Of a stretch of 64,000 nucleotides of DNA, positions 968-39,340 are shown one piece after another. The notes beneath the pieces are model-generated. The model ran no database searches and was not told where the DNA came from. It saw nothing but the letters and a program-made list of their open reading frames with translations. Source of the DNA: Amphibalanus amphitrite (Eukaryota; Arthropoda; Thecostraca; Balanomorpha; Balanidae); NCBI RefSeq assembly GCF_019059575.1, contig NW_024882741.1:62001-126000 (forward strand), in the 5' to 3' direction. Position 1 is the stretch's first letter. Every line of letters begins with the position of its first letter. Made by a program: the position numbers and the translations under genes.

Positions 968-2148
968 TTAACCCGCGCGGGGCTGGGGGGGGGGGTAAAT
1001 TTTACCCCCCCTCGCGAATTTTTGCGATATCTCAAAAACGTCGGCGCGCAGCGCCGCCAAACTTTCAGTACTTTTTCTGACATCAATTTGACACGTTCCC
1101 TGAAAATTTGAGCGAAATCCGTTGGAAATTTTTTGAGAAATTGACGTTTTAGTGACGTCATGTTCGCCATTTTCGCTTCAAAAACGGCAAAAGTTCAAAC
1201 GCCGCTAACATCTTCATTTTTAAAGGAATCAAGACGTAACAAAAAAGGTGATACGTAGTTTTAATTTGTCTATCAAATGGCTATCTCGGTTTTTTGAAAA
1301 TTTTGGATTTTGGCCTAAATTTTTTCAAAAAACTGACTTTTTTGGGAAAATCATTATAAAATCCAAAATTTTGAGTCTATCGAAAAACCGGAATATATGT
1401 CAGAGAAGTGGTCTATGTGCACCTACATACCAAATTTTAGAAGAATCAGTTCAAAAATGTGGGAGTTATTCAAAATTTTATGACGTCACGACACACAAAA
1501 TTTTTGAAAAATGACTTTTTTGGACGTTCTAGACCTCGTACGGAAACAAAAATAGCACCATTCGATTCGCCGTGAAAAACTGCATCAGATAGACACCTTT
1601 TTAGGCCTTAACAACCAACTTCAAAATTTGACCTAACTTGACCTGACCTTGACCTGACCTCGACCTGAAATTCATCCAGAGGTGGTCCATATCACTTATT
1701 GAGTGTGCCTATTGAATTCTATGAGTAAAATGACCCATAAAACATGTGTCGCACATGCCCTTTTCTATATTTTGTTTTTTGGTGACCTGACCTGACCTGA
1801 CCTGACCTTGACCTTGACCTCTGAATGATATTGTATGCAACGAATATTGTCTTGGTAGCCTAAGAACACGTTTTGGGCGATCAGTCTCAGTCCATGACTC
1901 CATTCTTCGGCAACTACGGTGCAAGGCCGATACTGTAGAAACTTGCAATTTGTACCCTTGACCTGACCTTGACCTTGACCTCAAACTTTAAATTAAGTAC
2001 ATGTTTTTAGTAGTTCGTGATGAGAGCTTTCGATTGGCGTTTGAATTTTCCAAATCGGACCATTAGTTCGGGAGATAACAGGGGGGTAAAATTTACCCCC
2101 CCCCAGCCCCGCGCGTTCGGCTGGAGACCCCAGCCCCGCGCGGGTTAA
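968..2148 (+). mobile_element. TTAA-flanked piggyBac-like non-autonomous element, copy A
   Basis: The 1181-bp unit starts and ends with TTAA. The termini form a perfect 17-bp inverted repeat, CCCGCGCGGGGCTGGGG. The left end continues into a G-tract/TAAATTTTA/C-tract hairpin, which recurs at the right end. A second hairpin of GGCGGCGC type lies at 1040-1058. TGACGTCA occurs at 1153 and 1481. TGACC-rich arrays lie at about 1630-1665, 1780-1822 and 1960-1981. TTAA duplication and CCC-starting ends are hallmarks of the piggyBac superfamily. I see no transposase frame, so it is non-autonomous. An 88-residue frame inside it looks like AT-rich spacer. Confidence 0.85.
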
Positions 2149-3859
2149 AACTAAGTACTAGAAAATACGTGGTTAAAAATCTGGCATCGTAAAATAGAGT
2201 CTTGAATGTAACATTTCTATTAAGACGAAAATGTGCAACTAAAAACTTTGGAACAGAAGTTTTGAACTTGTTTACGGTACTTCAAAAACTGTAATCTTGC
2301 GTGTTCCAAATGACTACTAAATTGGATCACTTATGAATTAAAAGCCGTTTGCACTTAAACTGCATTCAACAAACACCACAAATAAAACAGCCCGACTTAG
2401 ATCATCACCATATTATACAGGAAAAGCGGACATGCATGTAAAGCTGTAAATCACTTTTACCTGACGGCACTTTTCCACCAAATCGTCCTCACTGACATGT
2501 TTCAGTCATGGCACTCCCTCGATAATGCCTAATTGACAGCATCGTCTGTGTCGATTTCTGCCCAATCGCTAACCCATTCATATTGCGTCGTAAATTTTAC
2601 TGGCATCAACAAAACATCAAACCGAACTTACCTTCAACAGTCAACACAGTTCTAATTATTCTTGTTGCTAGCTGGGTGGATCGTAGCAGCTTGCATTATA
2701 CTTTTGTGTAATACAATGTTGGTAATTGGTATAGACACTCGGCTAGTATACTATTTTGTGTGCAGAACTACGCATTATTTTGTTCCGTTCAACTCTTGTG
2801 TCTTCAGTGTCTCAAAAGTGATCAGATTTCTTCATATGATGTTATTCATTTTCATCAAAAATATCAGCAATTTATAATGTTGCCCGGGTCGGGGTGCATC
2901 AACTATTCGGCCATTCATGTCTGCAATCTGCATATCATATTGTTGTCTAGAGTTACGTGGAAGAGGGATGCGATTGATTTGTTTCAAATGATGGAGTTTA
3001 ACCTTGCCTTATCGATTTACCAGACTTAGGATAAAGCCGAACCATTGACAGTTACACGTTTTTTAGTTCTTGTTTGAATAGCAAGCAAAATCAACGTAAA
3101 AGTTCACAAAAATTGTTGCGTTCAGGTACTTTGGGCTGCCTAACCACGCGAACCCGGTGGAGTCTGAGGGCTTATCGTGCAAGATCCCTTGCAATGCCTG
3201 TGTATGTGACCAGACAGTTGATAGTGGCTGGAAGGACGTATACGGAGCGCCATGGATACTTGCGATGCATCGCCGCGGAAGCTACATCCCATGGTGTCTT
3301 CGATAACTCATTTCACACACGCCGGGCTGTCGGGCCAACTTTTTCCGGCGCCAGTGTCCGTGCAGCACTTGGCACACGCTGTCCCCATTCATTCAGACGG
3401 TGCTGCTGTCAGCCATTGATTCACGGAGTGCACGAGTCATAAGAAGAACTGGCGCTGGCGACAGGACAACTGGAGCACAGGGGGTGGTCGGAGCCCGGCA
3501 AAAACGGCCCCAGGGTGTTTGGCAAACAGACGTGACGCAGCAGCTCGGGGAGGAGGATTGGCTGTCGGCTGGGATGGGCCTCTCGCCACAGCGGCTGTCG
3601 CGCTCCGTTTAGCGGTTGTCCCAGTCCGCTGCCCGGATTCAGCACGCTCAGCGGCTGTCCCAGTCCCAGCCCGCTGTCCCAGCCCCGCCCGCTCAGCGCG
3701 GGCGCAGACGGCGGGCCATCCATAACTGCGCGGCGGGTCGGCCAGCCTTGTAAATGGCCGCAGAAACAGAGCCTCCCGCTGAGCAGATCCTAGGAGGGGA
3801 GGCGCGCTGTTGGTGGCGCGTGCCGCCCAGCGAGCCACCACCCATCGACCGTCCAGTGT

Positions 3860-3965
3860 CGACGGTCCGCCGTCCACCGCCCATCGGCGTCCACCGTCCA
3901 CCATTCATTGTCCACATCCACCATCTACCGTCCACTGTCCACCGTCCGCTGTCCACACATCCACA
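3860..3965. repeat. Degenerate GTCCAC/CCGTCCACC minisatellite
   Basis: Imperfect units based on CCGTCCACC, CCATC and CCACTGTCC alternate over about 100 bases. On the complementary strand they read as GGTGGACGG, which produces Gly/Trp/Thr-rich pseudo-proteins. No coding role is apparent. Confidence 0.6.
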
Positions 3966-5348
3966 GCAAGCCCTAAAGACTAGAGCTGTAACCTCCGCGT
4001 GCCTCAACAATCAAGGCTTCATCATCGCGCTTTCGACTAGAACGGCAAGCTCCGTACCCAAAGTTGAAGCCGAGTCCTGATCAGCCGAAACCGGTGATAG
4101 CTGTGAACGCCAGTCATCGTTACATAAGCCACTTCACTATCTTTGCCAAGAAGAAAGCGCCTCTATATAGTTATAATCATTATATGTTCCTGGGCTTCAA
4201 ACTGAGGAGTGAGGATCCAAGCTTGGAGCTCTCAACCCGAGCTGAGCAGGGCCGGGTGCTGAGCAGCCAACACTGGCTCACGGCGCGGTTTTCAACATTT
4301 CACGGTACTCGAGGAACGGACCAGGCGACCGCTGCTGCATTAGCATTTGACCTTCGATGGTGGCTGGAGTTCGGGTGGAATTAGGGAAGTGCCACCGGAC
4401 GACCGTGCCACCAACGAAGCCTCCGCACGCGATTGGTCAGCCGATGTGCGAGCTCAGTCGGAAATGGCGACTGTAAAAGAGGTTTGGAAATCGGGCTACA
4501 TTGTGCGCCTAACTAGTCAATAGCAGTATTTTAGCAATTATTGCGACATTCTTACCTTATTACCGATGGGGATGACACTTGTCTTGAAATTTGTGGGTGA
4601 TACCCACAGCTCACATTCAATTGGAAATAGAACGTCGCCTGTCAAATAAAAGACATACCTATATTCGTCAGTTGTTGTATGTAATTGAAAACACGGTAAT
4701 CGATCAAGGGAGCGTTTTGTTGGCCTAGCTTGAGCAGATGAATTGACTGCTGTGATAAGATTCAGCTGTACATATAGGCCTCTATGATGGAAAGAATGAC
4801 AACTTCCACATTGCGCAATGCACGTAACATATGACACAGCATTATATGCGACATAATAGGTACAATTATTGTCGAACATTAAAAAGGTCAAGAAATTGTA
4901 CACATTAAACTTTGCAGACAATATCACTTTTCATGAAAATGTTGCAAATCAATGAGGTGTATTGTATAGTTTGTGAACGTTACATAAGCGGTGAGAAAAC
5001 CTCATTCACAGTGAAAACGTCTTGAAATAACAAATGTTTCCTGTATCACTATCCCTTGTCATTGCCTTTGACATGCTGGTAAAATCGTAAACACTCCTCG
5101 GTTCGATCGCGATTCAAATGCCAAACCAAAAATCCCGACGGAGCAGCCTCACTACAGGAATTAAGATGTACCGAAGATAAGCTCTAACATGGTTTTCTTA
5201 TCGGGCTAGCTGATCGTATTACAAGAAAACGTTCGGCCAAAGCCACTAATCCGATAAGACTGATCGCCAATAGCGAGTTTCCGTTTCCAGTAGCGGAGCG
5301 TACCGTTGCATGTTGGAAGTCTTGTCACCGTGAGCCGCAGCGATAGCG

Positions 5349-5480
5349 GTGATCCCCGGCGCCTCAGGAATCACCCGATCATCACCGGATCATTGCCGGA
5401 TCAACGCCAGATCACCGCCGCAGGAATCACCGAATCATCACCGGATCACTGCCGGATCACTGCCGGATGATTGCCGCATC
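5349..5480. repeat. Tandem repeat based on ATCACCGGATC/ATTGCCGG
   Basis: A short unit of about 10-11 bases (GGATCACTGCCGGATC and variants) is repeated about a dozen times. The phase drifts and units vary, as in an old minisatellite. Confidence 0.65.
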
Positions 5481-5924
5481 ACTGAACGGCAGCTATCAGG
5501 AATCCATCGGCACGTTCCTTCACCTACCGGGCCGGCCACAGCCTGCCTGTCCGTCTTGGAGCCGTCACTCCTGCTCCCCAGTAGTGGCGGGTTCATTACG
5601 AGCATGTCACACCAGTGACACGCGGACTGCGGAGGCGACGGACTGACGGCAGCGCGAGCCGGCACCCGGTCCGCCGCCGCCGCCACCTCCGCGGCGCAAA
5701 ACGATGAATTTTGAACAATGATAATTGGGCCGTCGCTGTCATTCCGTATTACTTCCAGTCACCTCTAGTCAGTCAGAATTAATCGGTGTCCGTGGGACGC
5801 CGGTAGATACGGCCGGCCGCCGGTCTGTGGGCTCGCCGCCGGCGCCGGAACGAGCGTCGAGAGATCGGACCTCATTTACATACACTCTCCCCGACAGACC
5901 GAGGACGGTCACTTCTCCTCCTCT

Positions 5925-6065
5925 CTTCCTTTTCAACATCTCTTCCTCCTTTTTTTCTATTTGTTCCTCTCCATCCTCGTCCTTCATCTCCGCTACCTCT
6001 CCTTTCTATCCCTTCTTTTCTCTTTTTTTCTTCTTGTATTTGTTTGCTCTTCAAACATTTTTTTT
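5925..6065 (+). repeat. Pyrimidine-rich (CT/T) tract
   Basis: About 140 bases are almost entirely C and T on the + strand, mostly TCTTCC and CTTTTTTTC blocks. The complement gives Glu/Lys-rich pseudo-peptides. No acceptor-exon signal was found after it. Confidence 0.65.
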
Positions 6066-7040
6066 CTTACGAAATGTAACAAAAAATATGTTCATTTATG
6101 ACGGAGTTCAACATTTTGAAGAAACTATCCACCGAATGCGTGAACTGGTTTGTCATCACCAAACTGACTGATTAGTGCAAAGAAGTCTCCAGGACCGACC
6201 GAGCCAGTGTTGACTGGTGCGCCGGCGTAAAAACGCACACCTCGCAATCCAATTACGAATCGGCGTGTTGATCTTTCCGCTCGGCCACCTCGGTGTGCGC
6301 CCGTACACAAACACGGCAATAAAAATACCGGCGCGTGTTTACACCCGACCCGATATGCACTGAAATATGTATGAGTGCACAGATTCGCCGACATCAGCCG
6401 CCATCGGAAGGCGCCCGCTTTTTAGTGGCGCCGCGTCGTCAGAAGTTATGTCCGCTCTGCCGATCGTCAGCCGTGCGACTGCAGTAAAGCCGTTACCTGA
6501 TACTACGCTGGCTGGAAACCAGGCTTACGAAGTCGCGAAACTAACGCAGCGCCATCAGAGTGGCATTCAGTCCACGGCTCTGCTTCTCTTAGCTTAGACT
6601 GCACGGTTACCTGCGTAATTTGAATAACGCACACAAAATAAACTTGAAGTAAAGAGACGTTTTTACATATATGTGTCGCATCAACTAAGATCAAAAACTC
6701 ATCAGTTCATACTGTTTATATTTCAAAAAGCACACCTCTGTGTTACAGAACACTCTCTTTGGTTTCCTGGAAACAATCACAAATGTAGCAAAAAGAAAAA
6801 GCAACGAATCTCATTCATCCTGCCTTCCACAAAAAGCCTTCTTCGACCTTTTTTATGGTGTTTGAATGATAGACCTACGCATCTTGAGGTCTATGTTTAC
6901 AGAAGTCCGGTATACAAAGGTCCCGGTATCTGGAGGCCTATGTTTGAGTCTTGTAGGTACATAGGTATCCACAAATGTTGTACACATATTCCCTTGTACT
7001 TTCAGCATCTGTATATCACCAAGTTCATATATGAAAGCTT

Positions 7041-8244
7041 TTAACCCTCGCCCCGTTGGGGGGGGGGCATTTTGGCCCCCCCTGTGGTTTTTCCTGAATA
7101 GCAAGAAAACGGCGGTGCGCAGCGCCGCCAAATTTTCAGTACCTTTCCGGACGTCAATTTGACACCTTCACACCAAATTTCAAGTCTTAGGTCACCTTAG
7201 GTCAGGAGTTATTGAGGTCAAACTGAGGTCATGTTCGAGCAAAAATGAGCAAAAAACATGCAATCTTGAAACGCTCACCAAATCTACAGTTATCAAGCAA
7301 TTTCAAAGTTCTTTATATGGTCTAATAGACAAAGTGCGGCGCTACAAAACTGCTATCTCGGATATTCAAAATTTTGGGTTTTTGACCCAAAAAAAATCAA
7401 AAAATTGATTTTTTTAGAAAAACTAAAAAAAAAATCCAAAACTTTCCCGAATTTCGAAAAAACCGGAATATATGTGATAGTCCCTGCGCTCTCCTATATA
7501 CATACCAAATTTCAGATCGATATCTCGTTTTTTGGCCAAGTTATAGCGAAAAAACTGTTCCAAAATGATGACGTCAAATTTTTGAACTCAATTTTTAGCG
7601 ATTCTAGACCTCGTACGGCAAAACAAAGACCACCATTGAACTCCCCGTGACGAGCTGCATCGATTCGATACCCATTTTATGCAAAAATATCAACTTTGAA
7701 ATTTGACCTAATTTGACCTGACCTTGACCTGACCTTGACCTGACCTTGACCTGACCTTGACCTGACCTTGACCAAAACGTGACCTAAGCTGGCCCCAAAG
7801 GCTGCCTGATCCACATAATCGCATTTGTCATGTAAAATGGACCATAAAACATGTATCACACGACACTTTCATATTGTGACCCCCCAGTGACCTGACCTCT
7901 GTGACCTGACCTAGAATCAATGACCTCAACTAGCAAAATATGTGTTTGAAGAACATTTCCCCATCGATGATTTTCAATGAAATGCATTTTACTCGATTTT
8001 ACAACGCATTTCTTGAAATGCCTGTAAGCGGTGAAAATTGGACCTTTGACCTGACCTGTGACGTCATCGGTTTGACCTAGGTCAATAAAATTGGGTCACA
8101 AGGTAGTTCCCTGATAGGGCTATCCAACACCGTTTGCCGCTTGTCGCTACGTTGCGTGGTTCTCGAGATCTTAGGGGGGGGGGCCAAAATGGCCCCCCCC
8201 AACGGGGCGCGTTGCTCGGCAGAGCCCAACGGGGCGCGGGTTAA
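7041..8244 (+). mobile_element. TTAA-flanked piggyBac-like non-autonomous element, copy B
   Basis: The 1204-bp unit is bounded by TTAA. The left end reads CCCTCGCCCCGTTGGGG and the right end carries CCCAACGGGGCGCGGG, a nearly matching inverted repeat. Both ends carry a G-tract hairpin with a CATTTTGG/CCAAAATGG core. The second GC hairpin is at 7111-7129. TGACGTCA occurs at 7569 and 8059. A perfect 11-bp TGACCTGACCT array lies at 7714-7773. The interior is homologous to copies A, D (reversed) and H. No transposase frame is visible. Confidence 0.85.
7714..7773 (-). repeat. TGACCTGACCT x5 array (AGGTCA half-sites)
   Basis: Five perfect 11-bp units plus TGACC. Each unit junction reads TGACCTTGA, the complement of TCAAGGTCA, the extended half-site known for FTZ-F1/SF-1 and ERR-type monomeric nuclear receptors. 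The motif match is seen in the sequence. Binding is inference, since expansion of a GGTCA-type simple repeat would give the same pattern. Confidence 0.75.
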
Positions 8245-10239
8245 AGCTGAGCTCAGTAGGAAAGATGGCTTGAACGGTTGAGATCTGTGGCAATGTGACA
8301 TTTGGTTTTCTTGTCTTGTATTCACTATTCAGCCAATTAGTAATGACGATGACGTGGCGAATCCATTATTATTATTTTTTGACAATAAAGTGTGACTGAT
8401 GACCTCATGATACGAGGAAGATTATCATGAACTTTTTCAATGATTCTTGCTTACAATGTAGTACAACTCAGTTGAAATTGACTAAAGTAGTCAGCTGATA
8501 TTAAATCATTGTCTTTCAGATATTTAATGTTGATGTCACAGCTCCTGCGGTCTGGTTAGAGCGGCTTTTGAGCTGTGGTTGCACATGGAAACACACCATA
8601 ATTTGCATACACAGCATAGAACAAGGAATACCTACCACATGCAACGGAATTGCAAAAGTCACAACTCAAGAAGACAAGAACGACGTAATTCTGGCTTTTA
8701 TTTTTAACACATAGAAGTAAGTCCCGTAAAATCTATAGTAACTTATCTTTTATCAAATACCATCTTATTTACTGAATTTCTATGAAAACCCTTTTTTTCC
8801 AGAGCATGTAAAAATCGGCCGCCCGTCACTGAACACCGTTTCCTTTCCGTGTATTTGCCGTTTGGAAGGAAGTGTGGCAAGTGGCTCGACTTTGCAAGTT
8901 GGCATTGCAAGGTCTGTGGATTTCCGCCGGCACGTGCCAGGGCCATGCAGTCAGCAGAGCCGAAGGTGTGCGGTAGAGGGGGCGGGATGTTGACCCTTGA
9001 CCGGCTTACAGGGGTGACCGGCGTCCAATGTTGCCTCTCATTCCACAGGGCGGTGAGAAAGGAATAGACCAACGGTGCTTTGTCACCTCGGCCTTGTGCG
9101 ACTGCCCCATGTTGCTATTGAATTCAGTAGGGGAAATTTCCTATAAATTCAACCGAGTGGTGAAGAGCTCAATCGGTACTGCTGGCATGTGACCCATGCA
9201 TCACATACCGGGGTTAAAGCGTTGTCAGCTCAGTCCTGTCAATGCCGTGCGGTGGTGTTTGGTTATACTGCCGGCACTGTTGGCTCGTTTGTTAATGCGC
9301 CGTTCCCTGTCGGCAGTGTCGACTTCCTGCCGCTCTGATCGGTAACGATGGTAGTTCGAACCATTAAATCATCGACAGACATTACCACACCGATGGAGAC
9401 TTAACGATGCCAATGAAATCTGAATCAGAAACACAGCCGAGGAGCGCTCGCCGCGGGCGGGCTCGACTGCTGTTTGTTAACCCACGGCGCCTCGGCACGT
9501 CACACAGTGAGGGGTCGCCGCTGAGTGCCGGTGGATGGGCATTCCCTGCCGCTGCCGCTCTTGGCGGCGATGCTACTAAATGCTGGTATTTTGACTGCCG
9601 GCAGTGTTGCTGTCATTGCAGCTGTCACAGGTAAGTAAAAACGTCGCAAAACGCTAAGTCAACAAAATATTTTACTCAAACTAGAGCCATGGCGTCTTTT
9701 TCGACATTATCATACATCTTCGACACACATATTGTGCAATGTGCATTCAGGCAATGCCATTGAATCTCCAACGTTTAACTGTAACAGGATCGTGCTGATT
9801 TACACAATGCATTTGTTACATTCCTCGTCTCAGGGTCGAGTCATGTGTAAGTGTGACCGGAAGCTGACGGAAAGGGCCAACCTCCGTTTCCTCTCCTCCC
9901 CACCTCCCACCGGGGTGTGTGTTGAGTTGGGGAAGGAGTGTCACCCCCCTCCCCTCCCAGGGTGTCGTAACAGCCACAGCGCGCCGCGGTGTTCGGCGTT
10001 CCCAAGTGCACACCGCGACAAATCCCCGCCTCCCCTGTCGTCCATTGTGTGGCAGGCTATGTAAACAGCGCCTCCTGATGAAGACATCGCACCGTAATAG
10101 GAAGGACGGCGGCGTTTTTGTCGCTGATATCACGTGCCGCCCACACTCCGGTGGGAAGGGTTGGGTTCGGAACCTGGACGGCAGACAGACGCGGAGGGAG
10201 ACAAAACACTCGGCCGCGCTGAGTCACTCCCACGCGCGG

Positions 10240-10330
10240 CGGTGGACAGTCCGGTGAACAGTCTAGTGGACAGTCTAGTGGACAGTCTGGTGGACAGCCT
10301 AGTGGACAGTCTGGTGGACAGTCAGCACTC
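10240..10330. repeat. 12-bp tandem repeat (GTGGACAGTCTA type)
   Basis: Six to seven units of GTGGACAGTCTR run in register. Because the unit is a multiple of three it encodes a Val-Asp-Ser-Leu repeat in one frame. That frame has no other support, so I call a minisatellite and not a gene. Confidence 0.75.
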
Positions 10331-14330: not shown

Positions 14331-14651
14331 CTATCCGTGCTTCTATCCTCAGGATACTGAAGTCCTTCTCCTCCACGCCACAACCCCCTTCCGGGCTGGA
14401 CAGGCAACTTTATCTCATGCGGGCTGCTCCCTTGGAGCGGCACCGCTGCTCCCGAGGGAGCGCACCCCGTAGCCGGGTGCAGTGAGTGCCTTGGGGCTGG
14501 GTGGCCTGTCCTCTGGACGGGCTCAGCCCCGGCGACTCACTAGGGTGCCTGCCCAGACCAATGTCACCCCCTAATTCCTATCATCCTTCCGGCTCTGCAA
14601 TGGTCTTGTCGACCGAAAGCGCCTAACCCAACAAAAACAAAACAAACAAAA
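14331..14651 (+). mobile_element. Retroposon-like 3' tail repeat, copy 1 (inside the hAT-like element)
   Basis: About 320 bases are clearly homologous to 36081-36413. Shared blocks include CCTTCTCCTCCACGCC, GGGCTGGACAGGCA, GACGGGCTCAGCCCCGG, CACTAGGGTGCCTG and GACCGAAAG. It ends in CCTAACCCAACAAAAACAAA, an A-rich tail suggesting retrotransposition. It could be a SINE or the truncated 3' end of a LINE; no reverse transcriptase frame is present to decide. Confidence 0.65.
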
Positions 14652-15960: not shown

Positions 15961-16007
15961 ACCCCCACCTAAAATTTGGAAAATTAACCCAAAAATGGGT
16001 ACCCCTA

Positions 16008-16015
16008 GTGTTTAC
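16008..16015. repeat. Right target-site duplication of hAT-like element
   Basis: GTGTTTAC here is the exact copy of 13230-13237. Confidence 0.85.
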
Positions 16016-19000
16016 ACTTCTGTTTATGTCTGGCTGCTTTATTGAGGCGGCAGCCGCGGCCGTCGGCGCGTTTTTACCTCTGAAACCGTTACACTCCATA
16101 TCGAAAGGTGTCCAGGAGGGCTGGTTGAAGGCATTGATTTACTGCTCAGCGGGTCTCTCAGAATCGGTATCGGCGCGTCGATTTATGGGGCTCGTCGTCA
16201 TTAGCACATTATTAGTGAACGGTGGACCACCTTCGTTGTAACTATGCCAAGTTTTTGTGGTGATTTTCAACCACGGAACCAGTGGCAGTGTGCCGATATT
16301 GTCGTGATAACTGCGATGCATGAGGGCTGCTCGGTGGGCTTTCTCGGGCTCGCCAAGTGCTGGTGATAACTGCCGATTCTTCCCGAGACGCTGCACCATC
16401 ATCTCCAGTGGCTGGTAATGCTCAAACAGCACGTACCGATAACGCACGGAAAGAAACTCACAGTAACTCAAAATGTTAGGTAAATGTGCTCAAAAATTCA
16501 AATCGTTCGGATAATCAGTGAAGCCGCAATGTCTGAGGAGGCACGAAGAAGAGAGAGACTTCAGAATCGGTATCAAAGTCAGACCAGTCCTCTGCTGTTC
16601 TATAGCTCAGCCCACAGGAACTGGGAATGGGCCTGTACCGGGTACCCGCTCCCAACATTGATGCCGGCGCGCAGTGTTCGGCTTTGGCGCGGTGCTCCCC
16701 ACTGGTCTTGGACTCTGAGACCGCACGGTCTGGAACGCTAAGGTTCTCGATGATCATGGACACTGGGACCCCGCTGGCCACCCACCTGAGACCCCGCTGG
16801 TCTGACCAGACCCTGGGTCACTCCCCGCAGACCCCAGTGACCGGCCACCGGCGCTCAGACCCGGCCCATCACGCTGCCCCTGTTATAGCTGTGGGTGGGC
16901 CGGCCCAGCCCACCCTACCAGGCCTATCGGAGCGCGCAGTGACCGACCGGGCCCCACAGGTGGCCCGCTCACTTTACAAGCTCCTGCTGGGGTTAATGTC
17001 AAATGACAATTGTTTAACGGCTATCTGGCAGACGCCGGTCGGTTATGGCAAATGCAGCGGTTCGGCTGGGGGAGTCGGTTTATTTGTATGCTGTAATTTA
17101 CGGCGCATTTTTCGGCAGGAATAAAAATGGTCGGAGCTTGACCATTTGAATTCAGTTCTTTTATATCGATGTTTCACCAGTTCGACCTTCGTTGAACCAA
17201 TACACTGACAGTGCCACTGACAGTCCCCAGATAAGCGGCGAACCTGGCACTGCCTTTACATTCCAGTTCCGACTTGCGTCATGGTACAGTAATTAATCAT
17301 ATCGGCGCGACTAATTGCGCCCGATACGGCGTGACTGTCTTCCCACGGTCCGCAAAAGGCAGTGATCGGGAGTGCGTGTCCTGAAACATTTACGATACTC
17401 TGGGGCCGTCAGCCGACGGCCTGCACAATCGAATCAAAACCAGATCAGCTGACACCGGGCCGAGCCATCGGCAGGGCTGCGGCCAATTAGGTACACGCAA
17501 TTAACAGTCTATGAAAGGTAATTACGAAATGAGATAGATGCCGGCGCTAACAGGATAATTGTTTGTACGGCAGAACCGTTTTACATACCTGATCAGGAAG
17601 CACCTCTATTTATAAATTTACGTGTTGGCGTGCATGTAAGGTATGCATATATAAACAAAGCCAGGTTCTCAGATGTAGAGCAGACAGAGAAGCACCTCTG
17701 CTCTCGTGTAATAATGCACTGGTTTTTATATCAGAGCCGGAATATTGAGGCATGATCAATGATCATGCGATCAATAACTTTTCCACATTTCCTTATCAGA
17801 AAATGTGCGCACATTTGTCACACATTGGTCACTGGCCAGCGTCACATTCCAGCAATTTGTGTATTTGTGAAGCCGCAACTACGCTGTTTGATGCTCGAGG
17901 ATTATTGTGTTAACCGTTAAATATTTATAATAACGGTTGCGCATAATCTATATATTTTTGTACTTATGCGTCGTTTATTATTTCTGTTTAGTTTGCTTTA
18001 AAAGGAACTGGAGATGTGCCCGGTGATGATGAAAATAAATATTAAATGAAACGAGTGCAGTATCATCGAATGATCCGCTAACAATGTCTTACCTACTGAC
18101 TGAAACGGAAAACGTCGATAGACACAGTATTGCAGGCTCAAAATACTTACATCGTGTTCCAAACGGTGCACGACATTTATCACAAGGTGAAATCGAACAG
18201 CACACCTGAAAAGCTAAGTAAAAGAACTTAATGGACCTGCTAAATTAATATGACATGACATCATTTAATGACGACTTCAGGAAACTCTTATCAACACAGA
18301 TGTCTTTTCCTCGAGCACCTATGTAATGCACGTGCACACAGGGGTAATCATCGATCAGTGATAGTAAAAAAGACAGGAAAACTGCTTCCAAGCAGGACGT
18401 CCTTAGGTGCCAATCACCAGACGGCAATGATAACGGGTCTTCGTTTCGACGCTTCTCTTCAATGGATGTGAACATAAAGGCGCATTCGCACTCACAATAT
18501 TTGGCACTTACTCGTGCACTCGCCCCACCACATTAGAAAGAACAGTCATTCCACTCCAGTTTATTTCAGTTCAATACCCAACAGAAGTGCATTCCAGTGC
18601 TAATCCCATCGGATTCACCGCAAAGCTACTTACCAAACAAACAGCTTGGAGTAGGTGACCATACAATCTCATTGCTCTGAAATGCGAGATAATGTTCCTT
18701 TCTGTGCATCCGCATTTCACTTTGAGCTCTACTCGTATCTGGATCGCTGCGCTGTCCAGTGGGTACTCAGCGTGTCAGCTTGGTCCCTGACGGCTTATCT
18801 AATCGTACGAGCCATGTTTGGTCTCTGAGTAATTAAATGCGTGCTGCTGGACAATCCGATACTGGAGCGGATACACTTCAGATCGGTATCTCGCAGTTGT
18901 AAACTGGCGCTGGGATAGAGATAAGCGGAAGGTCGGTTGAAATGGGACGAAAATGAAACGGAATGGAATGGGAAGGAATGGGCGAGCGAGGATAAGAGGA

Positions 19001-23329: not shown

Positions 23330-24526
23330 TTAACCCGCGCCCTGCTGGGGGGGGTGTTTGAACACCCCCCCTTGTGGTTTTTCGCGAATATCTCAAAAAC
23401 GGCGGCGCGGAGCGCCGCCGTTTTTGGTACACCTTATCCTACATCAATTCTACACATGTTGTGAAAATTTCAGACCAAGGTCATTCAAGGTCAGGTCACC
23501 AGGTCACTTGAAGTGACCTCACCTCATAAAAAGTTTCAATGTCTGTCATAGCTACACCGAGTGACCGATCGCTTTGAAACTTTCAGCGATTGCTAAGAGC
23601 AATAGCATGTACAAAATGTATATCTCAGAATTTTGATATCGATGACCTAAGGTCAGGTCAATTTTGCGACCTCCCCATTATAAGTCAATGGGAGAAAATT
23701 GAAATGCGCCTCTTTTGGACGAAAGACATTATAAACACTCCCAAACACTGAATTACAAGTGGTTTAGACACACTGAACATGAAAATGGTGTCCGTGACCC
23801 CTGTTTATGCCCTGAGGTCATCTTAGGTCACGAATGGTATCTAACAGTTTTTCGCAAATAACTTTTGATAGAGGCATGCTAGAGCGATGAAAACGCCTTA
23901 GATGTGTTCAGCTCGACGATACGGATCGACTGATATGCAACATGACCCTTTCCGGTCAGGTCATGACCTTGACCTGAGGTCAAATTTTCAAAATGACCTT
24001 TCAAGGTCAAGTTATAGTTCATTCGATGCGTCTTGACGAGAGGAACACGATACCGGTAAAAGTAAGCTCGTACAAGGCTTGGGTCAAAAGTTATTGCAGA
24101 AAAACTGTTTCCGAAAAAATCGGCTATTTTTGCAGTTTTTGCCCCCTGCAGGCAAAACCGTTGACGTTAGGTCAAATCTGAGAAAATTACTCAGAAAGGG
24201 CGTTAATAGGGCTATCGAATGCGCTTTTCCGCGGCGCTGTAGCTCTATTGGTTCCCGAGTTATGCGTTGGCTTCTTGGAAATTGTCGACATTCGACCTGG
24301 AAATCGGCGAAATTTTGCCTTTAATGACCTCTGGTGACCTGACCTTTGACCTGACCAAAAAATTGACCGAAGTGATTTCGTCATTATTTTTGACGCTCTT
24401 TCGAACGCCGCCTTCCGCGTTTCGCTACGTGGCCCAGGAGCCGAGTTAGAAGGGGGGGTGTTCAAACACCCCCCCCCCCCCCAGCAGGGCGTGGAAATCC
24501 AGGACCCCCAGCCGGGCGCGGGTTAA
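23330..24526 (+). mobile_element. TTAA-flanked piggyBac-like non-autonomous element, copy C (mosaic)
   Basis: The 1197-bp unit is bounded by TTAA. The left end is CCCGCGCCCTGCTGGGG and the right end carries CCCCCAGCCGGGCGCGGG. Both ends carry a G-tract hairpin with a TGTTTGAACA/TGTTCAAACA core. The left 100 bases match A and B, including the GC hairpin at 23401-23419. The interior (TATATCTCAGAATTTTGAT, TAAGTCAATGGGAG, GATATGCAACATGACC) matches copies E and G. AGGTCA and TGACC half-sites are frequent. I found no exact TGACGTCA, unlike the other copies. Confidence 0.85.
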
Positions 24527-31280: not shown

Positions 31281-31298
31281 GTTTCATGTAATTAGCGA

Positions 31299-31334
31299 AA
31301 GCGAAATCTACGAAAGCGAAATCTACGAAATGCT
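31299..31334 (+). repeat. 16-bp direct duplication
   Basis: GAAAGCGAAATCTACG is repeated twice in perfect tandem. No role is apparent. Confidence 0.7.
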
Positions 31335-31702
31335 GCCTCTGGGCTCTGATGAAAATATCAGTTAAATAGGCTTTAGAGTTTTTTTATGAATAACTGTGGA
31401 CAGGCAAGATGCTAAACTTGGCGTCAAATCTTGGCGTGAATTCGTAACATGACCTTTGCAGGTGACGTCAGCAATAACTTGCAGTGAAAGTGCGTAGTGA
31501 ATGTTGAAAAAGTTGCTCCCATTTTGATGGCATTGCATCATGCTATTTTCAAGCCATCGGAAAAACCTGCAGGGATGGGGTGTCCGTACAAGGGCCAAGG
31601 GGATTCGGTAAAATGGTCTTTTTAGGCGTAACGACAAAATATTTAGTACGTGTGCAACGTATATGTCAAAAAAAGTTGTGTCAGTTCGCTACCTTTTTCA
31701 TA

Positions 31703-31977
31703 TGTTACAGGGAGTATGCGATTTCAGTTAGTTTGCAACGACCCTAGGGTGGTTGTAACCTCCCTGAACGATCAGTTTGTTTGCAACGACCCTAGGGACG
31801 TTACAAAATAACTGCTCGTTCCGGGACGTTGTAACGAAACTAGGGTCGTTGCAACCTCCCTAGTTAGTATGCAACGAACCTAGGGTTGTTACAAAATAAC
31901 TAGGGAGTTTAAGAATTCATCGAGTCTCGTTTCACAGGAGGGCCGTCAACAATCTTGTTCAATGAAAATCTTGTTCA
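31703..31977 (+). repeat. Left 275-bp inverted arm
   Basis: It pairs with 35671-35945 from the TGTTACAGGG terminus to AATCTTGTTCA at its inner edge. Within the arm, CCTAGGG-centred blocks occur several times, each next to GCAACG or GTTACAAAAT. Confidence 0.9.
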
Positions 31978-32465
31978 TAAAACCCTTCGTCTTTTCGCGA
32001 TTATCTCGCGCTAAAAGCGGCCGATCGTGACGAAACTTTGAGTGTCCTCGGACTTATCTACGTTACTGGTTACACATTCCCTATAAAGTTCATGAGCCTG
32101 AAACCAATGACCTTTGACCTTTGATCTGATTTCTGAGACCATGGCAGACCGAAATGATTTGCCGTTTATGTTAGCGCACATAAAATTGCGTTTCCAGAGT
32201 TCTAATGTGATTACATATAAACGTGTCAACATGTGAACTGATGGTTGTCCCATGCATCATGATGGGTTTCAAGTTGACTTGTCAGTTGTCGGCCAGGTCA
32301 AGGTCATTGACGTTTGGTGACTTCGGGTGACTGTTTCAAATTTTACGATTTTAAGGGATTTTTTTAGCTTATTTCGAATCCAGCATTCGTTGAGACATTT
32401 GAGAAGTATATGTATAGTTGTGGTGCCAATGCAACTTGCTACGAAGCTCTCGCTGGTGGTTTAGG

Positions 32466-32680
32466 TATAGTCGACTACAGAATGATGTTCCACTCCTCAG
32501 AAGCTATCAGTTGACCGGAGCGCTAAGTTGTGCCGTTTATCACGCAATTAAGCGGGTCGATTGTGAGCATTGGGACAAAGCTATAATTTGTGAACTCAGC
32601 CCGTGTGATGCGGCACAGCCTACCACCCCAGGCAAATAATTGTCTGTGAAAAGTGGAACATCATTCTGTAGTCGACTATA
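32466..32680. mobile_element. 215-bp TA-flanked MITE
   Basis: The outer 28 bases of each end (32466-32493 and 32653-32680) are a perfect inverted repeat beginning TATAGTCGACTACAGAATGA. If TA is the duplicated target, the inverted repeat starts TAGTCGAC. Size, perfect ends and lack of coding capacity fit a Tc1/mariner-type MITE. It sits in the left interior of the long-inverted-repeat element. Confidence 0.8.
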
Positions 32681-32751
32681 CACCTGCTATAAACAGGTGG
32701 TGCGGGTGGGACGCCTACTACTTGACCCAAACTTACCCAACCCAGCCTAGC

Positions 32752-33950
32752 TTAACCCGGCAGGCGGTGGGCCTACCAGCCACCTTCCGCGCGGTGGGGG
32801 GGGGGCATTTTTTGCCCCCCCCCCCCGTATCTCCGAAACTACTGGACGGATCCGGAAAATTCAAACGGCGTTCGATAGCCCTGTCAAATTTGTTGAGGGG
32901 AAACCAAATTTATTGACCTCGGGGTCACCGATGACGTCACAGATCAGGTCAAAGATAAAATGTTTCACCGTTCACGGGGCTTCTAGGGAAAGCGCTATAA
33001 CACCGAGTAAAACGCATTTTGTCGAAAACCAGCGATAAGGCGTCAGTTGTCTAGTACATATGCTGCTATTAGAGGTCACTGGTCATACCAGGTCAGGTCA
33101 CAGGTCAGGTCACCAAAGGTCACCAAGGGTCACCACATGAGCCCAACTTTACTAAGGTTATGCGATGCATGTTTTATGGCCAGTTTTTCATTTCCAACTC
33201 AATGGTGTTGGTTATAAGACCATCAGGTGCGGTTTAGGTCACTTTCTGGTGGAGGTCAGGTCAAGGTCAGGTCAAAAAAGGTCAAATTTCAAAGTTGATA
33301 TTTTTGCATGAAATGGGTATCGATTCAATGCAGCTCGTCACGGGGAGTCTAATGGTGATCTTTGTTTTGCGCTACGAGGTCTAGAATTGCTAAAAATTGA
33401 GTTTGAAAATTTGACGTCATCAATGTTGAACAGTTTTTTTGCTATAACTTGGCCAAAAAAGAGGTATCGATCTCAAATTTCGTATGTAGATAGAAGTCGG
33501 TAGGGACTATCACATTTATTCCGGTTTTTCCGAAATTCAAAAAACTTTTGGGATTTTTTGGCTATTATAATCAAAAAATCTATTTTTTGATTTTTGGGGG
33601 TCAAAATACAAAAAAATCGAAAAACCGAAATAGTAGTTTTGTAGCCCTTTTGGTTTCACACCTTTAATGTCTGAAACATTTTTTCTGTATCTCTAAAGCT
33701 GTAGGCCTGACAGCTCTTCCCGCGAAACCTTTTTTGGGTCGAAAATGGCAAAAATGACGTCACTCTGACGTCATAAGCGGCCAACCTATCATAGCCTTTG
33801 GAAAAAAAAATTTGGTCACCATGTGCGCTAGCTGCTCCCGGGAGGGCACTGAAAGTTTGGTGACGATCGGCGCAGCGGTTCTCGAGATATATTGAAAAAA
33901 CTAAAGGGGGGGGGGGGCAAAAAAATGTCCCCCACCGCCTGGAAGGTTAA
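32752..33950 (-). mobile_element. TTAA-flanked piggyBac-like non-autonomous element, copy D (reversed)
   Basis: The 1199-bp unit is bounded by TTAA. Its sequence is the reverse of A, B and H: the TGCATGAAATGGGTATCGAT and GTCACGGGGAGT blocks at about 33305-33350 are the complement of those in B. The left end here has two GCGGTGGG modules, the equivalent of the duplicated right-end module in the other copies. G-tract hairpins flank both sides (CATTTTTTG and CAAAAAAATG cores). TGACGTCA occurs at 32932 and 33412. Its right TTAA is shared with copy E. Confidence 0.82.
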
Positions 33951-34942
33951 TCCTCGCCCCCCCCCCTAGTTATTTTTTTCGCGATAGCTCCGAACACGCT
34001 AGCAACAAAGACCTGAAACTAGGCATACCTGACCTTTGATTCAAGCCGGATCTTGTGACACCAACCATATTTTCAGGTCAGGTCAGGGTACTGACCTATG
34101 ACGTCATAAGTGAACGGTCCTCAGATGCAGCAACTTCGCAGCGCCCTCAGTCACATAGGAGCTTTTACAGGGGGATGAAACTTACAGTACGTGCATCTTT
34201 TAGAAGTCTCACAATTTGTACCTCTAGGATTTTTCCTAAAGATCACATGAGGTCAGGTCGGTCACGTGACATCTGACATCACCACTATAAGTCAATTGAG
34301 AAAAATGAAAACTGCTATTCTGGCGCCTGGAACGATCTCAAACTATCTCAAGCACACGGATCGTGATTTCATGCACTCCTTGCAAGGTTAGATGCTTCAA
34401 TTTTGCATTGGTGACGCCATTTATGACGTCACTAAGGTCATACGAGCTTTTCGTCAATACCTCCCGATCAAACTGAGCTAGCGAGTCGGTCAAGCCACCA
34501 ATGGACTGAGGGAGACTTGCCGAATCGAATAATATGCAACATGACCTCTTTTGACCAATTTCGCGACCTAGGGGTCTCTGACCTGACCTTGACCCGAGGT
34601 CAACACCTCAAGTTGACCTCCCCCGAACCAAAAAGTATACCATTCGACTCGCCTGAGCAAGGCGAGCACGTTGATGCTAAAATCGCGCTTTGCGACTGTT
34701 TTTAAAAACAAGTTATCAAAAACCGAACCCGCGTCTTTGGTCACTTGACCTGACTTCAGAGGTCACCGGTTGACCTGAGACCTTAAAATCGGGTACTAGT
34801 TGCTGTGCCTCCTAACGGCACACACGCTCGTTTTTTCCTGCGACGCTCTAACTCCATCAGGGGCGAAAAACGACAAGGGGGTCGTACCAACCCTCCCCCG
34901 GCCGGCGCGGATGTAGAAAACCAACAGGTCCGTCGGGGTTAA
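33947..34942 (+). mobile_element. TTAA-flanked piggyBac-like non-autonomous element, copy E
   Basis: This 996-bp unit shares TTAA 33947-33950 with D and 34939-34942 with F. It is closely homologous to copy G over its length (GCGATAGCTCCGAACACGCT, ATGAAAACTGCTATTCTGGC, GTAGAAAACCAA). The left terminus reads TTAATCCTCGCC followed only by a C tract, so the G arm of the terminal hairpin is missing. TGACGTCA is at 34099. Confidence 0.8.
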
Positions 34943-35060
34943 CTCTCGCCCTTATTGGTGTTTTGCTAACCGCAAACGCACAGGGCGGGGCTAAGTTATT
35001 GGTTGACCTTCCAGGTCAGGTCAGTGACTCAAAAGTCGGGAAAATCGGGACCTGTTAAAA
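34939..35060 (+). mobile_element. Left end of a further TTAA element, copy F (truncated)
   Basis: Directly after copy E, the sequence TTAACTCTCGCCC matches the TTAACCCTCGCC start of B, G and I. It is followed by a GGGCGGGG block and AGGTCAGGTCA. I find no matching right end, so this is a remnant of uncertain length. Confidence 0.45.
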
Positions 35061-35670
35061 CTTTGGAGAGCTAGGTTGTTATGAGTTTTTTTTTTTCGGA
35101 GCGCTGATCACGAATTTCATATTAACTTTGATCATCGATGTCTTGATGTTTTTAGGCCAGATCGGGTCAGGTCAGGTCAGGTCAACCAGTAGGCGTCTTG
35201 CTAGCTGTCATAGTAGGTGTTAAACACCGCTGACAGCTTCGTGACATGGTACGAAGGCTCCAAAATTACTTCGTAAATGTTTAAAAGGATGCTGAATTCG
35301 AAATCAGCTCCAAAAACTAGCCTAAAATATATGAACCCAGAAGAAGTGAACTAAGGTCATCAAAGGTCAATGATCTTGACCTGACCTTCACGTGACCTTA
35401 ATGACACCCACCATAATGCATGGGACCATGCCATCATTTCACATGTTTGAACGTTTACAATCACAAAAAGACTGGAAACGAGCGGATAATAGCCGTTTTT
35501 ACGGAGGGCTTCCTAGCGAATGCTCATCTAATTTGAACAAATCTGCACCAAATGTGCACCTGATCTGCACGAAATGTGTACTAGATGCCTAGATGGCCGT
35601 CGTGAAATACTCCTGAGCTGAATGTTCAAATTGTGTTCTCATTTCCAATTGTTCTCCTTCTGAACTAGGT

Positions 35671-35945
35671 TGAACAAGATTTTCATTGGACAAGATTGTT
35701 GACGGCCCTCCTGTGAAATGAGACTCGATGAGTTCTTAAACTCCCTGGTTATTTTGTAACAACCCTAGGTTCGTTGCATACTAACTAGGGAGGTTGCAAC
35801 GACCCTAGTTTCGTTACAACGTCCCGGAACGAGCAGTTATTTTGTAACGTCCCTAGGGTCGTTGCAAACAAACTGATCGTTCAGGGAGGTTACAACCACC
35901 CTAGGGTCGTTGCAAACTAACTGAAATCGCATACTCCCTGTAACA
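35671..35945 (-). repeat. Right 275-bp inverted arm
   Basis: Reverse complement of 31703-31977 with only scattered mismatches, ending CGCATACTCCCTGTAACA. Confidence 0.9.
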
Positions 35946-36080
35946 CATATAAAGCTGACGTGTTTCGTCTTATGACTTCCTCAATCCTCAGCGCCTTTTG
36001 AAAGTATATCTAAAAAGCGCTAGAGAAGTTATTTGACGAAACCAGTCTACACTATATGTAATTGCTTATTTATAATATAC

Positions 36081-36413
36081 TCATCCCGTCCGTCGTTTCC
36101 ATCTTCAGGACTATCAAATCCTTCTCCTCCACGCCGAAACCATCGGTCCGGGCTGGACAGGCATCTTCGCCTCATGCAGGCTGGACCTTTGGTGCGGCTC
36201 CGCTGCTCCCAAGGGAGCACATCCGTAGCCCGGTGCAGTGAGCACTTGGGGCCTTGGGGGGCTGGTCGGCCTGTTCTTTGGAAGTTGGGACGGGCTCAGC
36301 CCCGGTGACCCACTAGGGTGCCTGTCCAGACCAATGCCTCCCCTAATTTCCCTCATCCTTCAGGCTTTGAAATTGTTTTGTCAGACCGAAAGGGCCTAAC
36401 CCAACAAACAACA
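36081..36413 (+). mobile_element. Retroposon-like 3' tail repeat, copy 2
   Basis: Homologous to 14331-14651 in the same orientation, with many substitutions and small indels. It ends CCTAACCCAACAAACAACA, immediately followed by the TTAA of copy G, which therefore inserted at or near the A-rich tail. No coding frame is present. Confidence 0.65.
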
Positions 36414-37468
36414 TTAACCCTCGCCGGCCGAGGGGGGGGGGGGCGGGTGCCGCCCCCCCCCATAGTTTTTTTGCGATAGCTCCGAACACGCTGGCGATAG
36501 AAAGCTGAAACTTAGCAAACCTGACCTTTAATTCAAGCCGAATCTTTTGACACCAACCGCATTTTTGGGTCAGGTCAGGTCACTGACCTATGACGTCATA
36601 AGTGAACCTCTGCACGGTCTTCAGATGTCGCAACTTCGCAACGCCCTCACTGCCAGAGGAGATGTCACAGGGAAATGAACCTTGCAGTATCTAGTATCCA
36701 TTATGAGTCTCACAGTTTGGATATCTCGGATTTTTCCTAAAGGTCATATGAGGTCAGGTCATTTTCGTGACCTCACCATTATGTATAAGTCAATGGGGAA
36801 AATGAAAACTGCTATTCTGGCGCCGGGAACGATCTCCAACTATCTCAAGCACACAGAATCGTGATTTGATGCACTCCTTGCAAGGTTAGATGCGTCACTT
36901 TTGCAATGTTGTCCTTGCGTGACGTCATTTATGACGTCATCAAGGTCATATTCATTTTTCGTCATTAACTCTTGATCAAATTGAGCTAGCGAGTCGGAAA
37001 AGCCACCAATGGACTCAGGAAGACCTGCCGAATCGAATGATATGCGACATGACCTCTTTCGACCAACTTCGTGACCTGGGGGTGCTGACCTGACCTTGAC
37101 CTGAGGTCAACACCCTAAGTTGACCTGACCCGAACAAAAGTATATCATTCGACGCGCCTGAGCTATGCGAACACGATGCTGCCAAAATCGCGGCTCTGCG
37201 GCCATTTTTTGCGAAGTTATTCACCAAAAACTGAACCGTACATTGGGGCACTTGACCTGACCTCAGACGGCTCAGAGGTCACCGGTTGACCTAGGACCTT
37301 AAAATCGGGTAACAATCTCTGCGTCTCGTAACGGCGCACACGCTCGTTTGTCTCCGCGACGCGCTAGCTCCACCAGGGGCGAAACGGCGAGAGGGGGGGG
37401 GGGGTCGTACCCGCCCCCTCCCTCGGCCGGCGCGTATGTAGAAAACCAATAGGTCCGGCGAGGGTTAA
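36414..37468 (+). mobile_element. TTAA-flanked piggyBac-like non-autonomous element, copy G
   Basis: The 1055-bp unit is bounded by TTAA. The left end is CCCTCGCCGGCCGAGGGGG and the right end contains CCCTCGGCCGGCGCG and then GGTCCGGCGAGGG. A left hairpin has a GGGTGCCGCCC core. The interior is near-identical in order to copy E. TGACGTCA is at 36591, with further ones at about 36920-36942. Many TGACC/AGGTCA sites lie at 37080-37125. No transposase frame. Confidence 0.85.
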
Positions 37469-38164
37469 TATAATATCCCTGCATGCTATATGTACATGCT
37501 CAAGAAATATCTAGGTACTAGTGTCCAAGATATCTGAACCTCAGTATGTCGGTACATGTCCAAATTCTTTATGTCCGCCGGCTAGGAATGTCAAACACGC
37601 ATAATAAACGCTGCTATATAGGTGCGCCTTCTGTGCACTAGAATCTGCAGCCGACCTTTAGTAACCACATGCCGCACTTCTGTCCATCAATATTGACACG
37701 CGGTATCCTATGTCAGGCTGACAATTTCTACGTACCGCAGCCCCGTGGGTACAGGGGCGGTCCTTTCACAGAACAGAATATTACCTTCGTTGGACACTGA
37801 CGCGGGCTTATAAAAAAGGTTATTGGTTGACGCCCTTTGACATTTGTTTGAAGAATGACAGTCTGAACTCCGAGGCAAGGGCTTTGTAGGAACTCTATTC
37901 CATTTGCGATACTGTATCTGATATTCTATATACGGATCTTTTAATTTTACCCTGGCTGCCACGGTGATGGGTGTTTTTACACCGTTCCACGCAGACTTTC
38001 CGGAAATTAAAATGACGTGACCTGGCATTTGATCTAGGTTAAAATGGCTGATGTACTTTCAATGTTTTGTGTGATAATACCAATCCGCTTATCGTTTCTC
38101 GTTACGGGTCAGGAAAAGCAGGAGAACGCCCCTGCCCTACTTCGATCTGCAAGAGCAAACTGCT
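37469..38164. other. Spacer between copies G and H; possible LINE remnant
   Basis: About 700 bases without a clear gene. A minus-strand frame (37708-38028) contains a motif faintly like the end of a LINE reverse transcriptase. Nothing else is visible. Confidence 0.4.
37708..38028 (-). pseudogene. Possible degenerate LINE ORF2 C-terminal remnant
   Basis: The minus-strand frame contains RKWNRVPTK. Many CR1/jockey-type LINE proteins have an R-x-WN-x-LP motif near the C-terminus, followed by a Ser/Phe/Lys-rich stretch. After this motif a neighbouring frame looks more similar to that stretch, which would imply a frameshift. The evidence is one short motif, so this is speculative. Confidence 0.18.
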
Positions 38165-39340
38165 TTAACCCGCGCCCCGTAGGGGGGGGGCCGAAACGGC
38201 CCCCCTGTCCTTTTCGGTCGATATCTCCTAAACGGCTGGAGATATCGCCACCAAACTTTCAGTACCCCTCCGGGCATCAATTTTACACATTGTGACCAAA
38301 AATTTTACCAGAGGCTATGATAGGTTGGCCACAAATGACGTCAGAGTGACGTCATGTTCTGTCATTTTCGACCGAAAAAAGACCTTCGCGAGAAGACCTG
38401 TTAGGACTACAGCTTTGAAGATACAGAAAAATGATCAAGTCATAAAAGGTGTAGAATTGACAGGGCTACAAAACTGCCATCTCAAATTTTTGAAATTTTT
38501 GAGTTTTGACCCCCAAAAATCAAAAAAGCATTTTTTTGGATATATTCGCCGAAAAATCCAAAAAGTTTTTTGAGTTTCAAAAAAACCGGAATATATGTGA
38601 TAGTGCCTACCGTCTTCTATCTACATACCAAATTTCAGATCGATACCTCGTTTTTTGGCCAAGTTATAGCGAAAAAACTGTTCAAAAATGATGACGTCAA
38701 ATTTTCAAACTCAATTTTTGGCAATTCTAGAACTCGTAGAGCAAAACGAAGACCACCATTAATCTCCCCGTGACGAGCTGCATCGAATCGATACCCATTT
38801 TATGCAAAAATATCAACTTTGAAATTTGACCTAATTTGACTTGACCTTGACCTGACCTTCACCAAAAAGTGACCTAGGCTGGCCCCAAAGGCTGCCTAAC
38901 CCACATAATCGCATTTGTCATGTAAAATGGACCATAAAACATGTATCACACGACACATTCATATTGTGACCCCCGGTGACCTGACCTCGCTGTGACCTGA
39001 CCTGGTATCAGTGACCTCAGATAGCAAAGTATGTGTTTGACGAACAATGTACCATCGATGGTTTTCAATAAATTACCAATTTACTCGCTTTCACAGCACA
39101 TTTCTTGAATTGCCTGTGAACGGTGAAAATCTGACCTTTGACCTGACCTGTGACGTCATCGGTTTGACCTAGGTCAATGAAATTTGGTCACAAGATAGTT
39201 CCCGGGTGGGGCTATCGAACGCCGTTTGAATTTTGAAAATCGGCCGGTAACTTTCCGAGATCTTAGGGGGGGGCCGAAACGGCCCCCCCCCCCTCTACGG
39301 GTGGTAGGGTCCGCCGGTAGCCCTACGGGGCGCGGGTTAA
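38165..39340 (+). mobile_element. TTAA-flanked piggyBac-like non-autonomous element, copy H
   Basis: The 1176-bp unit is bounded by TTAA. The left end is CCCGCGCCCCGTAGGGG and the right end CCCTACGGGGCGCGGG is its complement. Both ends carry a G-tract hairpin with a CCGAAACGG core. TGACGTCA is at 38336. The interior matches B nearly base for base over long stretches (GGAATATATGTGATAG, CTCGTTTTTTGGCCAAGTTA, GACGAGCTGCATCGA), suggesting relatively recent divergence. No transposase frame. Confidence 0.87.

Follow-up and report, generated by a model that had tools for sequence, protein, structure and literature searches.

Eight related elements with TTAA boundaries

A 64-kb stretch of the genome of the thecostracan Amphibalanus amphitrite (contig NW_024882741.1, positions 62,001 to 126,000 of the forward strand; hereafter, the window) contains eight related elements of 0.95 to 1.2 kb, each of them bounded by TTAA. 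Here, we analyze the ends of these elements, which carry a motif consisting of a G-tract, a core and a C-tract. The sequence of this motif varies from one element to the next and is largely shared by the two ends of the same element. All counts and pairings reported below refer to the window unless stated otherwise.

The range covered by an earlier reading of this sequence (968-39340; hereafter, the original prediction) takes in seven of the elements, denoted A, B, C, D, E, F and H; the eighth, I, falls outside it. D is on the minus strand and the others are on the plus strand. Element A (968-2148, both flanking TTAA included) has palindromes at 985-1011 and 2081-2104, with the core TAAATTTTA at both ends when read inward. 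The motifs of B (7041-8244), a member of a set of elements with mosaic bodies, are located at 7058-7082 and 8174-8200, with the cores CATTTTGG and CCATTTTGG, read inward. C (23330-24526) resembles A in that a single core, TGTTTGAACA, read inward, occupies both palindromes (23347-23371 and 24452-24482). D (32752-33950) has one motif at what we call the simple end (33906-33933, core ACATTTTTTTG) and another at the long end (32796-32826, core CATTTTTTG). In E (33947-34942), the right motif is found at 34877-34899 (core TTGGTACGA), and the left one is deleted relative to F. The two motifs of F (36414-37468) lie at 36432-36461 (CGGGTGCCG) and 37393-37418 (CGGGTACGA). The palindromes of H (38165-39340), at 38182-38205 and 39266-39293, enclose the cores CCGAAACGG and CCGTTTCGG, that is, CCG-AAA-CGG and CCG-TTT-CGG when read inward. 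Finally, I (60711-61665) carries motifs at 60729-60758 (TTGGTGCAA) and 61589-61620 (TTGGTGCGA).

TTAA is present at both boundaries of all eight elements. D and E adjoin, with their simple ends together and a single TTAA (33947-33950) common to both, so one of them was probably inserted into the boundary TTAA of the other. The boundary TTAA suggest a TTAA target duplication, and no empty site was found in the window. The string TTAACCC is enriched in the window, with 24 matches against 7.8 expected. The tip is CCC at 14 of the 16 ends, the other two being the left ends of D (CCTT) and E (TCCT), and the termini conform to CC...GG at all ends except the left end of E.

A palindromic motif at the element ends

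There are 15 matches to the pattern G5+/4-22 nt/C5+ in the window, every one at an element end, compared with a mean of 0.53 and a maximum of 3 occurrences in 100 dinucleotide shuffles; the pattern in the reverse order, C5+...G5+, has no occurrences in the window. Hairpin-type motifs of this kind had been predicted near the ends from the sequence, and they are indeed present at 15 of the 16 ends of the eight elements; the particular cores and outer arms quoted for A, B, C and H are found in those copies. The missing motif belongs to the left end of E, where the alignment to F contains a gap that takes out the G half and the core.

Most of the motifs are palindromic. When all 15 are considered, 38 of the 48 core pairs are complementary, with a null mean of 14.5 and none of 20,000 shuffles reaching 38. 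With one hand-picked core per element, the count is 23 of 25 (null mean 7.7; not reached in 20,000 shuffles). Three symmetric core positions each show three or four kinds of complementary pair. Symmetry is poorest in the right core of F, the left core of B and the left core of D, where two of three, two of three and three of four inner pairs fail, respectively, in the register of the pair count. When the first 100 nt of each end were searched for the best palindrome, the centers fell at bp 24.5-31 in six left ends and at bp 53-60 in seven right ends; a different palindrome was chosen in the left end of C (longer and further in) and in the right end of E.

Twelve of the 15 motifs, leaving out both of D and one of E, were folded as single-stranded DNA. 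A hairpin of 9-13 pairs and -9.4 to -18 kcal/mol was predicted for each of the 12, and between 0 and 15 of 200 shuffles folded as well; these modeled structures bear on the ability to form a hairpin, not on its formation in vivo. We found no description of such G/C-tract palindromic cores in the available portions of the open-licence literature.

A second GC-rich palindrome, of the GGCGGCGCGCAGCGCCGCC type, was noticed by eye inside the simple end of A (1035-1060), B (7110-7130), C (23394-23426) and I (60780-60806). In C, it comprises 15 pairs; by eye, D, E, F and H seem to be without it.

The two ends of an element match each other

Pairing of the ends was assessed for the seven elements that carry both motifs (A, B, C, D, F, H and I; E was dropped) against all 5040 permutations. 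The elements are related to one another, so the resulting figures describe the pairing and are not independent trials. The core alignment score averages 0.72 within elements and -0.10 between elements, each core scores highest with its own partner, and the true pairing ranks first among the 5040, in agreement with the expectation that the ends are more similar within a copy than between copies. In A, F, H and I, the four elements whose cores are 9 nt long at either end, the mismatch is 0.19 within and 0.65 between elements. The match extends to the first 16 nt of the tip, for which the true pairing is again the best of all and the own partner is the best in six of the seven elements. It extends also to a second copy of the tip motif that is present at the long end: against this copy, the true pairing of the left tip is the best of 5040, and for the right tip, five of the 5040 pairings are as good, with the own copy scoring best in five of seven elements. 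The 60 nt directly inside the motif show no pairing signal (4375 of 5040 pairings are as good).

The observation that the same core returns at the other end is confirmed, with the qualification that the left and right ends are not identical in five of the seven elements (B, D, F, H and I). In H, the loop reads AAA on the left and TTT on the right, both inward, which is an exact inversion.

End layout and the assignment to the piggyBac type

The two ends of an element differ in layout. At the simple end, the tip motif (TTAA-CCC...) is directly followed by the palindrome, with the G-tract starting at bp 14-15 from the tip. At the long end, the palindrome lies 27-32 bp deeper, behind an insertion that contains the second tip-motif copy, and the G-tract starts at bp 41-47. 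All seven elements with both motifs show this offset, which is 27 bp in five of them, 30 bp in H and 32 bp in F.

This arrangement closely resembles that of piggyBac from Trichoplusia ni (here and below, published systems are compared as described in the accessible parts of the cited sources). Both piggyBac ends, LE35 and RE63, have an internal repeat, 19 bp long and palindromic, to which a dimer of cysteine-rich domains (CRDs) binds, at bp 17-33 in the left end; the target is TTAA, and the repeat lies deeper at one end, with an insertion and a duplicated motif, at an offset of 28 bp by subtraction, compared with 27-32 bp here (PMC7351741). Unlike piggyBac, the elements described here have long G- and C-tracts flanking the palindrome and a core that differs between copies, and no transposase was found. 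The hallmark piggyBac tip is CC[C/T]T (PMC2872659), whereas the fourth base following the prevalent CCC is often G here. In piggyBat, the CRD recognizes a palindrome that is unrelated in sequence, so the CRD site differs between relatives; the right end of piggyBat lacks such a palindrome, and therefore the asymmetric palindrome layout does not define the whole superfamily (PMC11707139). Our elements match piggyBac closely in geometry, which is not a full test of membership. By analogy, the end palindrome is probably the docking site of a transposase. The main part of the observation is ordinary inverted-repeat ends with a palindromic protein site.

Kolobok elements, a different superfamily, also duplicate TTAA, but their termini are 5'-RR and YY-3' (PMC9587614), as opposed to 5'-CC...GG-3' at 15 of the 16 ends here, and the two-ended layout in the window follows piggyBac. 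We rejected membership in Kolobok on the basis of the termini, and an origin in this or any other TTAA superfamily than piggyBac appears very unlikely.

The layout bears also on the proposal, made in the original prediction, that replication copies the hairpin of one end onto the other, such that the elements would replicate through terminal hairpins. Hairpins were predicted for all 12 folded motifs, as this scheme would have it, and flip-flop of a hairpin would yield the loop inversion of H. However, the G-tracts start 14-47 bp inside the tip in all seven elements with both motifs, rather than at the extreme end, and the TTAA flanks are those of cut-and-paste transposons. The ten scanned open reading frames (ORFs; see below) included no replication gene, and the transient hairpin that piggyBac itself forms consists of the terminal TTAA (PMC7351741). 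The same inverted core at both ends is the definition of a terminal inverted repeat (TIR), so that no special replication is needed, and a CRD dimer site accounts for both arms changing together, so that the covariation is not evidence for a hairpin in vivo. With the motifs lying inside the element extremes, we rejected a hairpin-ended replicon; end-to-end copying in the course of replication finds no direct support in these cut-and-paste-type ends and is extremely improbable.

Related bodies with different but matched ends

Relatives with 76-84% identical bodies bear different, yet internally matched, ends. B and H are 82% identical in the interior, 78% at the simple end and 81% at the long end; for D and H, the respective values are 81%, 59% and 70%, and E and F are 84% identical in the interior and 83% at the long end. 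Some of the letters that distinguish B from H do so at both ends alike, namely tip base 13 (T or A), whose counterpart in the tip-motif repeat of the long end differs as well, and a symmetric pair of the core (A:T or G:C). F has CGG as its outer arm on the left and on the right, as against TTG in I and in E (right end only). A compensating inner arm accompanies the CGG at the left end of F; the inner arm on the right is still the one found in E. The data support homogenization of the ends within an element, as originally proposed, at the level of the pattern: bodies that are related have ends that differ between them and match within each (B and H; F compared with E). We conclude with moderate confidence that matched ends changing in step between relatives are real in this small sample and are best explained by a combination of copying and selection.

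Coevolution by selection alone would involve no copying: the specificity of the transposase drifts, and the half-sites are replaced by independent mutations until they all agree once more. A dimer site accounts for both the symmetry within an end and the identity between the ends (PMC7351741). The tip motif is matched as well, and in piggyBac, a different domain of the transposase binds bp 7-16. Under this scenario, however, the same letters would have to arise independently in four half-sites and in as many as three copies of the tip. The two-base difference of F from E is identical at both ends of F, and the three-base loop difference in H is an exact inversion, neither of which fits comfortably with independent mutation. 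Thus, we consider selection acting by itself to be rather unlikely.

The bodies of the elements are mosaic. In an alignment of A, B, D and H, the first 300 bp of B contain 26 sites that group D with H to the exclusion of A and B, three that group B with H and seven that support the third grouping, whereas past this point the respective counts are 15, 37 and 12. The difference in D+H and B+H counts across the 300-bp split is significant by the Fisher test (p = 1e-7), with the split chosen after the alignments had been seen. The identity between B and H ranges from 0.46 to 0.98 in 50-bp steps. From about 400 to 700, B, D and H are all 85-97% alike; B is the outlier to the left of this region and D to its right, which indicates that the bodies recombine. 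A possible mosaic structure of I, with a left flank like that of A, B and C and a right flank like that of E and F, was weak in the alignments (site counts of 46 vs 34 on the left and 34 vs 38 on the right against B, and 42 vs 48 on the left against A) and was not used.

Such mosaicism is what would be expected if the ends were fixed family labels and the interiors were traded by recombination or gap repair, with no copying from end to end. The D+H and B+H site counts and the swings in B-H identity favor this view. Against it, the ends of B and H are alike to the tip but for a few changes, and therefore were not swapped wholesale, and the right core of F, half-changed and adjoining flanks that resemble those of E, suggests a change under way. 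The left 300 bp of B do not resemble H or D, although the cores at its two ends are almost identical; exchange confined to the interior would give the same result, so that in B, either the exchange was internal or the ends were homogenized afterwards. On balance, fixed end labels seem a doubtful explanation.

Copying between ends combined with selection

The explanation that we favor, with a probability of roughly 0.6, is that these are non-autonomous piggyBac-type elements, similar to miniature inverted-repeat transposable elements (MITEs), whose ends are kept matched by copying between the ends together with selection. A change in one half-site would be transferred to both the opposite arm and the opposite end, either by template switching between inverted repeats or by gene conversion during the repair of excision gaps. 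Because one transposase must bind all the half-sites, copies with matched, symmetric ends would then be favored by selection. The TTAA boundaries, the layout, the symmetry, the matching within elements and the mosaic bodies are directly observed; binding by a transposase, the copying steps and selection are what we infer from them. The inverted loop of H and the deleted motif of E fit strand switching and slippage at palindromes. In yeast, template switching between inverted repeats homogenizes the arms and inverts the spacers, with spacers of at most 70 nt (PMC8604942), so that extending this to distances of 1 kb is an extrapolation; gene conversion could fill this role equally well. Template switching has also been argued to be able to create stems, although the evidence that it maintains them is called circumstantial by the source itself (PMC8794818).

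Several points weigh against this explanation. Neither a transposase gene nor an autonomous relative was found among the ten window ORFs scanned, of the 93 of at least 100 amino acids. The tips of A, C and H are CCCG at both ends, not the CC[C/T]T of piggyBac (PMC2872659), and the cores of E, F and I lack the AT-rich center described for the piggyBac and piggyBat palindromes. B and H differ also at one end only, at base 4 of the left tip, at one base of the left core of B and in the left loop of H. The yeast study supports arm-to-arm copying better than end-to-end copying, and copying between ends about 1 kb apart is inferred rather than directly seen. The sample consists of seven end pairs from a single window, in elements related to one another, and the direction of change would rest on few copies.

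A more specific, and tentative, possibility is that the elements re-key themselves: strand switching would carry a mutation in a half-site first to the opposite arm and next to the opposite end. If so, one or two steps would suffice for a re-keying MITE lineage to alter its recognition code in every half-site without losing its body, and the lineage could keep up with a transposase that diverges or adopt a different helper; F, with its half-changed end, and H, with its inverted loop, would be intermediates of this process. Matched ends with changing sequence are hard to study where related elements keep the same ends. In this single 64-kb window, several bodies that are related have palindromic ends that differ between elements but match within each, and there is a possible intermediate; the whole genome could separate copying from selection and show whether non-autonomous elements can switch transposases.

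Comparison with other transposons

The closest parallels that we identified each share a part of this picture. The CMITEs of the coral Acropora are, like the elements described here, TTAA MITEs whose shared body is more conserved between families than the TIRs; the left and right TIRs are matched in families I-III and less so in families IV-VI (PMC2872659). The combination of conserved bodies with differing, matched TIRs thus provides a precedent for the central oddity of our elements. Unlike the latter, CMITEs are about 100 bp long and have TIRs of 13-14 bp, and the accessible text mentions neither a subterminal palindrome nor end asymmetry (PMC2872659). The Pokey MITEs of Daphnia, mPok1 and mPok2, belong to the piggyBac family and are fairly similar in size (760 bp on average), and the TIRs of the two types follow two different autonomous partners. 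They differ from the elements in the window in having imperfect TIRs of 12-16 bp and in inserting into ribosomal DNA as well; palindromic cores are not mentioned in the portions of the source that were available (PMC4912750). In the Drosophila transposon Galileo, sequences inserted into one TIR come to be shared by both, but this element belongs to another superfamily, P, and generates 7-bp target duplications (PMC4168063). Palindromic MITE-like elements are mentioned also for Anopheles, with TTAA not named in the accessible passage (PMC3212995).

Coding content and other features of the window

The window contains few long ORFs, only 14 of at least 150 amino acids with a start codon, and appears to be mostly non-coding DNA. 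Ten of the 93 stop-to-stop ORFs of at least 100 amino acids were scanned against Pfam; five of these overlap A, B, C, H and I, one each, and D, E and F contain no such ORF. No Pfam family reached its cut-off in the ten scanned ORFs; a match to PF03845 below the cut-off (E 0.041), in the ORF at 57435-57956 outside the elements, was set aside. Scans of the window for tRNAs and for Rfam families, the latter at the gathering score, gave no matches. Given their length of 0.95-1.2 kb, the elements are taken to be non-autonomous. Narrow exact-pattern scans of viral contigs and prokaryotic genome contigs detected no copies, which says little given how narrow the patterns were and that neither collection is eukaryotic.

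An additional candidate, at 15984-16996, was rejected: both of its ends carry TTAACCC, but the G/C-tract motif is absent. Two copies of a repeat with a CA-rich tail, resembling a short interspersed nuclear element by eye, are present at 36089-36413 and 14334-14639 (80% identical), and F starts directly after the first of these. A potential empty site for F at 14640, checked by eye, was rejected: the sequence 3' of F does not continue the repeat, and the CA-rich tail ends both copies.

D and E are enclosed in a 4.26-kb region (31695-35953) with 283-bp inverted arms that are 98% complementary. Its outer ends, TGTTACAGGG...CCCTGTAACA, are flanked by CATA on both sides (by eye), and it therefore looks like another transposon; the arms contain tandem short palindromes around CCCTAGGG.

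The bodies of the elements are rich in AGGTCA/TGACCT, which we take to be nuclear-receptor half-sites, with 132 occurrences in about 9 kb (14.7 per kb), compared with 68 (1.24 per kb) in the rest of the window. The sequence TGACGTCA, presumably a CRE (cAMP response element) motif, occurs 19 times in the element bodies and five times in the rest of the window. The elements could scatter nuclear-receptor half-sites and CRE motifs through the genome.

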